Assembly: GCA_943326765.2 (NCBI GenBank)
Contig: CALPUN020000003.1
Coordinates: 1-35,366 of the forward strand
Length of the DNA: 35,366 nt
Reading direction: 5' to 3'
Origin: Bifidobacterium breve
GTDB taxonomy: Bacteria; Bacteroidota; Bacteroidia; Flavobacteriales; Flavobacteriaceae
Shown here: in pieces, positions 7,527 through 30,004 of the stretch
Layout: each line of letters opens with the position of its first letter
Numbering within the stretch: the first letter of the stretch is position 1
Notes under the pieces: generated by a model
What the model was told of the DNA's origin: nothing
What the model saw: the letters and a program-made list of their open reading frames with translations, nothing else
Database searches by the model: none
Translations under genes and position numbers: made by a program

Positions 7527-8546
7527 ATGATAGACAAAATCAAAGCATATACCGCAGAAGCCCAAGAATTCGCAACTCAAAACAAAGAAGAACTTGAAGC
7601 CTTCCGAATTAAGTTTTTAGGAAGCAAAGGCCTTCTAAAAGAGTTTTTTGCCGAATTCAAACACGTTCCCAACGAACAAAAAAAAGAATTTGGGCAAGTC
7701 ATGAATTTGCTAAAAACAGCTGCCGAAGAAAAAGTAAAAACCATTCAAGAAGCACTCGAAAGCAAGGAAGAAATTAAAGGCTTTTACGGCGATTTAACTC
7801 GTCCGAGCGAACCAATTAGCATCGGTTCGCGTCACCCTATTTCGTTGGTTAAAAACCAAATCATCGACATCTTTTCCAATATCGGTTTTAATGTTTCCGA
7901 AGGACCAGAAATAGAAGACGATTGGCACAATTTTACCGCATTGAATTTGCCCGAATACCATCCGGCGCGTGACATGCAAGACACGTTTTTTATTCAAACC
8001 AATCCCGATATTTTACTAAGAACCCACACATCATCGGTGCAAGTGCGTTACATGGAAAACAATAAACCACCAATTCGTACGATTTCTCCTGGACGAGTGT
8101 TCCGAAACGAAGCGATTTCTTCGCGTTCCCATTGTATTTTCCACCAAGTCGAAGGTTTGTATATTGATAAAGATGTTTCGTTTGCCGATTTAAAGCAAAC
8201 GCTCTTATATTTCACCAAAGAAATGTTCGGAAAGTCGAAAATTCGCTTGCGTCCATCCTATTTTCCGTTTACCGAACCTAGCGCTGAGGTTGATATTTAT
8301 TGGGGCTTGAAAACCGAAACCGATTACCGTATCACCAAAGGAACTGGCTGGTTAGAAATCATGGGTTGTGGCATGGTCGATCCGAATGTCTTGAAAAACT
8401 GCGGCATCAATCCCGACGAATACAACGGATTTGCCTTCGGAATGGGCATCGAAAGAATCGCGATGTTGCTCTATCAAATTGGCGACATCCGAATGTTTTA
8501 TGAAAACGACGTTCGTTTCTTAGAGCAATTCAAATCCAGCATTTAA
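7527..8546 (+). CDS. pheS: Phenylalanyl-tRNA synthetase alpha subunit
   Basis: Class II aaRS motifs ([52 protein letters not shown]). Confidence 0.97.
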
Positions 8547-8561
8547 ATTATTAATTGACTC

Positions 8562-8664
8562 AGGAGCTATTCCAGCTATCCACTATATCTTTTTAATAAG
8601 GCTTTCAGTCTTTAACGGCCTGAAAGCCTTATTAAAAAGGATGCCGTTCCTATCTGGGCTAAGG
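8562..8664 (+). repeat. Structured intergenic element, family A copy 1 (candidate RNA)
   Basis: Conserved arms aggagctattccagctatccactatatcttttt / aaaaaggatgccgttcctatctgggctaagg around a long hairpin (8587-8608 with 8620-8642). Homologous to 29358-29439 and to 11372-11460 minus. Confidence 0.8.
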
Positions 8665-8698
8665 AATTGCTGTAACATTTATTAACAACCAACCAATT

Positions 8699-11358: not shown

Positions 11359-11371
11359 TGTTTTATTTTTT

Positions 11372-11460
11372 TAGCCCCGATAGTAGCAAGTATCCTTTTT
11401 TGAGTGGCTCCGAAGGAAGCCGTCTTAAAAAAGATACTGCGAATAGCGGGAATAGCTCCT
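11372..11460 (-). repeat. Structured intergenic element, family A copy 3 (candidate RNA)
   Basis: Reverse complement reads aggagctattcccgctattcgcagtatctttttt...aaaaaaggatacttgctactatcggggcta, matching both arms of the other two copies. Confidence 0.78.
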
Positions 11461-11650
11461 GAAGAAAAAACAATTTGCACCGTTTGTTTCGACCTTTCAA
11501 AAGTAACCAAATTTTTATGATATAAAATAAAATCAAAAAGAAGAATCAACAGCCAAAAGTTCTTTTGGAGAGGAAAAACTTTAAAAGCGCCTACTTTTCA
11601 CGATTGTTAATACAATATAATCAAAAAAGCGTCATAGGATAACAAACTTT

Positions 11651-24564: not shown

Positions 24565-24687
24565 GGGCGTGACCGCGCCGAAAAGGCGGGTCGGGTTTTT
24601 CGTTCCCAATCTTTTGCGCCACCCATTCAAAAGGGATGGAAAAAATAAGCCCAAGCGCAAAAGGATTTCCACTGCAACCCCTCACGC
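24565..24687 (+). repeat. Structured intergenic element, family B (candidate RNA)
   Basis: Closing arms gcgtga (24567-24572) / tcacgc (24682-24687); hairpin gaccgcgcc-gaaaa-ggcgggtc; second hairpin aatcttttgcgc...gcgcaaaaggatt with bulged G. Confidence 0.7.
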
Positions 24688-24876
24688 AAATTCTACCAGC
24701 AATTCGCGTTTTAAGGCCTTGTCACACCGAGCGCCGTCGAGAGGCTAACTATTTTCAATCCATCCCAAAATCCTAGCTATAAACGAAACAAGTACCCCCG
24801 TAAAAACTTGGCACTCATGCCCTATAACTCATAACAATTTATTACTTTCGCAACTCGATTTTTAGAAAAGGATATT

Positions 24877-29352: not shown

Positions 29353-29357
29353 TTTTT

Positions 29358-29439
29358 AGGAGCTTTTTCCCGCTATCCACTTTATCTTTTGCTGGCTAAA
29401 GAAGCCAGCAAAAGGATGCCGTTGCTATCGGGGCTAGGA
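29358..29439 (+). repeat. Structured intergenic element, family A copy 2 (candidate RNA)
   Basis: aggagctttttcccgctatccactttatctttt / aaaaggatgccgttgctatcggggctagg around gctggct-aaaga-agccagc. Confidence 0.82.
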
Positions 29440-29440
29440 T

Positions 29441-30004
29441 TTAGAACTCGTAAATACGTTTGGGAGTAACACAATAATCCAACTTAATATCGCTTTCAAA
29501 AACATCCTCGATGCCGACTTCTGCTTCAAAGAAGGACAATCCAATTTTGAGGGTTTCGGGTCGGCATTCCGATAAAAACTGATCGTAAATTCCTTTGCCA
29601 TATCCCACGCGATGCCCTTGTTGGTCAAATGCCAGCAGCGGTACAAATACCACATCAATTTTAGAAACAGGAACTTCCAAACCGTCTACTGGTTCTGGAA
29701 TGGAATAAGAATTATTTTTAATTTTAGTGTTGTCGGTCAGCAAATAATGCGTCATTTTTCGCGTAGCAAAATCACTTTTCGAAAGCACGACTTCTTTGTC
29801 TTTGCCCGCTAACAGGTGCAAAAGGAATTCTGTATCCACTTCTTTTTGTGACTGAATCGGAAGAAACACATGAAAATAGGTTTTCTCCCATATAGGAAGT
29901 GTCAGCACCGCATTGGCAATAGCCAAACTACTTTCTTCCAAATCAGTTTCGGAAAGTTGCTGCCGCAATTCTTTGTATTGATGTCTTAATTCGGTTTTAA
30001 GCAT
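29441..30004 (-). CDS. 5-formyltetrahydrofolate cyclo-ligase
   Basis: LKTELRHQYKELRQQLS start; DVVFVPLLAFDQQGHRVGYGKGIYDQFL motif. Confidence 0.93.
   Translation of the reverse strand: MLKTELRHQYKELRQQLSETDLEESSLAIANAVLTLPIWEKTYFHVFLPIQSQKEVDTEFLLHLLAGKDKEVVLSKSDFATRKMTHYLLTDNTKIKNNSYSIPEPVDGLEVPVSKIDVVFVPLLAFDQQGHRVGYGKGIYDQFLSECRPETLKIGLSFFEAEVGIEDVFESDIKLDYCVTPKRIYEF

Follow-up and report, generated by a model that had tools for sequence, protein, structure and literature searches.

What is the folded element that recurs between the genes of this window (the whole stretch of DNA analysed, 35,366 nucleotides), and does it act as RNA or as DNA? A sequence-only reading had proposed three copies of a structured family, one of them at 8562-8664, and had named Flavo-1 as the first Rfam family to check. 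That suggestion was correct: the window elements are Flavo-1 (Rfam RF01705), an already known family, and RF01705 matches all three copies. The reading had itself listed an existing Rfam match as a point against it, and this match takes away its novelty while the call stands. All three copies are real, although a diverged fourth, at 24565-24688, had been overlooked. All four reach the RF01705 gathering score (a covariance-model score of 42 bits; the model has 76 positions), and the Flavo-1 consensus hairpin, with internal loops and a variable apical stem, was found in the copies both by cmscan alignment and by sequence-only MAFFT with RNAalifold.

Flavo-1 copies in the window and across genomes

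Copy 1 (8560..8670, minus strand, class A; RF01705 65.9 bits at 8565-8664, 72 bits at 8560-8670 with our own model, R1) was confirmed in sequence at the place first described, and carries a long apical stem, AATAAGGCTTTCAG/CTGAAAGCCTTATT. Its upstream neighbour is pheS (phenylalanyl-tRNA synthetase alpha, 7527..8546, plus strand; PF01409 at 1.5e-99 and PF02912), while the gene on the other side encodes a type IX secretion sorting domain (Pfam). Both sister copies were also recovered, the third in the opposite orientation. Copy 2 (29356..29445, minus strand, class A; RF01705 77.7 bits at 29362-29439, R1 93.9 bits) occupies the whole gap between convergent genes for signal peptidase II and 5-FTHF cyclo-ligase (ORFs, Pfam), and copy 3 (11363..11462, plus strand, class A; RF01705 53.3 bits at 11369-11457, R1 58 bits) lies some 10 bases upstream of where a glycerol-3-phosphate dehydrogenase gene on the minus strand starts (Pfam). 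Copy 4 (24565..24688, minus strand, class B, diverged; RF01705 46.3 bits at 24585-24692, R1 25.7 bits for the core only, 24594-24680) combines the core hairpin with a 3' side hairpin and the outer stem GCGTGA/TCACGC; its neighbours are recO and an isoleucyl-tRNA-synthetase-like gene (Pfam). A repeat-like TTGTCACACCGAGCGCCGTCGAGAGG sequence stands after this copy, at 24718-24745.

A 19-base piece of the arm has 2 matches in the window at up to 3 mismatches against 0.00 expected in shuffles; because of this expectation, and because three copies score above the curated Rfam threshold, chance is ruled out for the window copies. On either strand the three class A copies of the window have a better fold than their shuffles, and the z-scores are lower for the Rfam strand. 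Several details of the earlier description were borne out, namely the outer pairs (CCAG/CTGG in copy 1, CCCG/CGGG in both sister copies), the bulged base next to the T/A tracts, and apical stems that are unrelated and self-complementary, with the correction that the apical stem of copy 3 carries a bulged base. The arms it called common vary among the copies: copy 2 has GGAGCTTTTTCCCGCTATCCACTTTATC, and copy 3 has TTCGCAGTATC and GGATACTTGCTACTATC.

Flavo-1 was catalogued in 2010 as RNA by Weinberg et al. (PMC2864571), where its entry reads 'y, n, n', interpreted here as likely RNA, not cis-regulatory and not a switch; Rfam types RF01705 as sRNA, and a published count ranks it with the most abundant families of small RNA (PMC9029176). 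The draft genome (2.4 Mb in 227 contigs, 92% complete) contains 105 RF01705 matches, 97 of them above the cut-off, and none was found in 14 control genomes. Across 25 genomes of the genus, including the draft genome itself, copy numbers range between 0 and at least 88. Among 393 sampled Bacteroidota genomes, 61 have a match with E no worse than 0.001 and 50 exceed the cut-off, with matches in 25 of the 26 sampled genus genomes and a patchy distribution over the other Bacteroidota. In an exact-pattern scan, the named genomes among the matches listed were mainly Flavobacterium, with Chryseobacterium, Halpernia, Paenimyroides, Tamlana, Polaribacter and Algibacter also present; the matches listed further included a Chitinophaga-labelled MAG and two spirochaete MAGs, which are leads, as MAG labels can be wrong. 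This scattered occurrence in other taxa fits horizontal spread, if the spirochaete MAG bins are clean. Carriage by phages was rejected, as two exact core patterns matched only 2 and 5 viral contigs.

Constraint on the fold and inheritance by position

The copies are imperfect hairpins, about 60-150 bases long, with invariant bases in the arms and a variable apical stem, and class A copies have ends of the form TAGCCC...AATAGCTCC (also TAGCCC...AATAGC). In alignment A1 (51 copies aligned by MAFFT from sequence alone, chosen among high-scoring matches and favouring intact stems), RNAalifold gave a hairpin of 23 pairs, 15 of which vary on both sides. In this alignment, 97.7% of cells are paired and the covariation score is 0.692 versus 0.203 when shuffled and 0.09-0.15 when slid; the shuffle count is not a probability, the copies being related, yet the slid controls retain that relatedness and score far lower. 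Two genomes, G005 and G046, gave a similar picture (95.6% paired, covariation 0.706) in an alignment of 91 rows that was model-aligned and hence leans to the model. Four mismatches are kept in A1 (A.G in 51/51, G.A in 51/51, A.G in 49/51 and G.A in 51/51), as is a bulged C (50/51 copies). Over 12 arm pairs, Watson-Crick cells number 606, 1018 and 855 in alignments A1, A2 and A3, respectively, against 4, 13 and 8 G.T cells and 0, 3 and 11 A.C cells, ten of the last 11 in a single column. Folded as DNA, the strand with the purine mismatches (the Rfam strand) is more stable than its complement in 46 of the 51 copies. The hairpin fold is thus under strong constraint, a conclusion strongly supported by these data, and the earlier proposal of selection on single-strand structure is likewise strongly supported by the covariation in alignments of copies.

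Some copies, including copy 4 of the window, lack the TAGCCC...AATAGC ends and instead have ends of the GCGTNAGGG...AGCCCGACC...GGNACGCC type (class B). In 62 of 68 of these, the reverse complement of the first five bases occurs within 70 bases past the core, whereas 500 shuffles gave 18.5 on average and at most 28; this 5-base test, with a tighter element pattern, was picked after a 6-base outer-stem test had succeeded in 14/73 only, so that the margin and not the threshold carries the claim, and the set contains orthologous copies, so that independence is overstated. The outer-stem variants seen were GCGTT/AACGC, GCGTG/CACGC, GCATG/CATGC and GCGGC/GCCGC. Class B is thus a larger variant, marked by an extra covarying outer stem beyond class A. 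Class A copies do not differ from RF01705 and match the full model above the gathering score, whereas the class B outer stem lies outside the 76-position model and is hence uncovered by Rfam.

The gene pheS, present in 61/61 genus genomes searched, served as the anchor for comparison across species. An element follows it at 7 of the 30 loci examined, in a single orientation throughout, and six of the seven have CCAG/CTGG outer pairs in common, with differing apical stems. For a closer pair, G005 and G046 (pheS DNA 93% identical), about 27 of the 35 G046 loci fetched match a G005 element locus over at least 300 bases, a few via repeated flanks only, and elsewhere in synteny one genome has the element where the other lacks it. 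The comparison shows that, between two species, about three quarters of the copies are common by position; copies are thus inherited in place, with some gained or lost. At the syntenic sites that lack the element, the flanks were too diverged for a target-site duplication to be visible. Identical copies flanked by unrelated sequence were not seen. Within genomes, sets of copies equal in length and alike in their apical stems occur at unrelated loci, their arms often differing by compensated pairs.

In 23 position-matched pairs, the arm-pair cells comprised 230 unchanged, 22 double-changed and 4 single-changed. Nineteen of the 22 double changes sit in four pairs in which the inner arms and the apical stem changed jointly (the orthology of one, L230/L253, is doubtful), and these block changes look like exchange of an inner module, consisting of the inner stem and loop, at some orthologous sites. 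Isolated compensated pairs, one or two in number, were found in L209/L200 and L228/L267. Other sequences were seen in or around individual copies. In Flavobacterium sp. Leaf82 (L332:5140-5510), one Flavo-1 copy and its flanks are part of a tandem duplication of about 221 bases. Two copies, in L230 and L232 (both G046), have a CCTGTCTGCCGACAGGCAGG palindrome inserted in the 5' arm at the identical point, GA/TAG, as if a second palindromic element targeted Flavo-1, and other dispersed repeats of the CTGAGCNNNGTCGAAGG and GCTGCGCCAGTTCGCTT types lie inside the apical part (L058, L181, L183, L227/L266 and L254) or the arms (L015).

Candidate partners and known hairpin systems

The REP of a RAYT is a palindrome of 20-40 bp ending in GTAG or CGTC (PMC3733652), and REP/RAYT systems (TnpA_REP; Bacteroidetes subclass 2.6, PMC6006769) resemble Flavo-1 in consisting of short intergenic imperfect hairpins present in tens per genome. 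Flavo-1 differs in length (about 60-150 bases against 20-40; about 60-146 where it was set against the REP definition), in having no GTAG/CGTC tag, and in not adjoining RAYT genes and being abundant in genomes free of them. No RF01705 match at the gathering score was found in 11 Y1/RAYT loci, copy number did not track RAYT (Pfam PF01797 and a profile from seven RAYT proteins), and the RAYT-free genomes G000, G004, G006, G010, G011, G012 and G016 hold 12 to about 100 Flavo-1 copies. We rejected the RAYT link on the absence of Flavo-1 from these loci and the lack of copy-number tracking. The RAYT-like genes of Flavobacterium have flanking repeats of their own, for example CCCGATAGCGCGGATTTGCAATCCGTGCCC (L104, L106-L108, L111, L118 and L119), and the CCCCGATAG / CCCGCTA foot of these repeats resembles Flavo-1 ends, which is an unproven lead.

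In architecture attC sites are similar to Flavo-1, as imperfect hairpins with fixed unpaired bases, a terminal structure variable in length and sequence, and a preferred strand; unlike them, Flavo-1 comes without an integrase or cassette arrays, and no RYYYAAC or GTTRRRY boxes were seen by eye in the 51-copy class A alignment. An integron partner was rejected, since the integrase model TIGR02249 gave 0/40 genomes above the cut-off, with weaker matches also in all control genomes. MITE-like repeats (ERIC, Correia/NEMIS) are non-coding, intergenic, dispersed and folded, as is Flavo-1, for which, in contrast to them, neither a matching transposase nor a target-site duplication was found. The ORF layout next to Flavo-1 in distant taxa pointed to no obvious partner gene. 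Neither RAYT nor integron systems fitted when tested as partners; we therefore say that Flavo-1 probably works like a REP- or attC-style hairpin and is a member of neither class.

Gene context and the nature of the folded molecule

In two sets of copies compared with their neighbouring genes, tandem contexts split into 60 antisense and 32 sense copies, a modest excess that includes orthologues and depends on genes called as longest ORFs without annotation; 34 further contexts were divergent and 20 convergent. An earlier mixed sample gave a tandem split of 18/17, and the distances to stop and start codons revealed no fixed position. An own promoter was rejected, the flavobacterial box TAnnTTTG not being enriched upstream of the element (14/166) versus its other side (16/166). 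A replication-strand bias was also rejected in G010, where the top matches seemed perfectly split and the full list gave 31/28 with no clear split; no replichore bias in orientation was found in a single-contig genome, although a model of lagging-strand transposition would predict one. The G060 chromosome, one of two genomes examined, has a skewed orientation of 58 to 28 over its entire record (nominal p 0.0016), which follows no replichore pattern.

The placement of the copies and the way they change suggest that the fold of this dispersed repeat acts in DNA. As the likeliest reading, and at about an even bet (roughly 0.5), we propose that Flavo-1 works at the DNA level, its hairpin read by a protein as in REP or attC. 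In its favour we count the Rfam matches, the covariation with few wobbles, the kept mismatches and bulged C, the greater DNA stability of the mismatch-bearing strand, the mixed orientation and context, the unenriched promoter box, the published RNA-seq, the similar equal-length copies at unrelated loci, the position-matched comparison of G005 with G046, and the scattered occurrence in other taxa. We infer a folded molecule made of DNA, a protein that reads it, and a spread of copies in trans: one strand would fold when single-stranded, during replication, repair or cruciform extrusion, and a putative protein would then recognise the folded strand, as with REP or attC hairpins. A narrower version, in which Flavo-1 is no sRNA but a strand-specific folded-DNA element of classes A and B, with an exchangeable apical module and a putative protein reader other than a RAYT or an integron integrase, is offered more tentatively. 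Counted against the DNA reading are that no partner was found, no target-site duplication demonstrated, no identical copies seen between unrelated flanks and no replichore bias seen. Two further observations would fit RNA as well, namely a weak excess of G.T over A.C cells in A1 and A2 (17 to 3; A3 has 8 to 11) and the weak antisense excess in tandem contexts.

It is possible, but rather doubtful, that Flavo-1 is instead a structured RNA, either an mRNA hairpin or a small RNA that is protein-bound or processed. The family was discovered as a structured RNA candidate and is typed as sRNA by Rfam, mismatch type and stability both favour one strand, tandem contexts show a weak orientation bias, and several 5' transcribed regions of F. 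psychrophilum overlap Flavo-1 matches (PMC9723704); yet copies occur in both orientations and in every gene context, the promoter box is not enriched, G.U makes up about 1% of arm pairs, and RNA-seq in F. psychrophilum covers matches in sense and antisense alike, with many copies outside transcripts (PMC9723704). On the same grounds of mixed orientation and context, promoter box, few wobbles and published RNA-seq, the label of candidate ncRNA or structured 3'UTR in the sequence-only reading is unsupported, while of the two options in its phrase 'RNA or single-stranded DNA structure' our analysis favours DNA.

A role for the hairpins as bidirectional terminators, or as insulators, at the ends of genes is improbable: copies 1, 2 and 4 of the window do lie close behind stop codons, and other hairpins often stand at the same site downstream of pheS in other species (by eye), but the tracts run T-stem-A rather than A-stem-T, so that no U-tract follows the Flavo-1 stem, convergent gaps are not favoured (20 against 34 divergent), and a terminator would not need the invariant mismatches and arm bases. 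Slightly less probable still is an origin without selection, in which quasi-palindrome correction, a mutational process, or gene conversion among copies would produce the complementarity. The double changes that separate orthologues do mostly fall in blocks of 4-6, accompanied by a new apical stem, as inner-module exchange would leave them; palindrome correction, however, would repair the A.G/G.A mismatches, which are invariant, and the isolated compensated pairs in two orthologous pairs also speak against such an origin.

If the DNA reading is true, a non-coding feature that ranks among the most numerous in Flavobacterium, including the fish pathogen F. psychrophilum, would be a hairpin repeat, and annotating its copies as sRNA genes should be avoided. 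With fixed purine mismatches framed by near-perfect covariation, Flavo-1 is a good bait for pull-down experiments.
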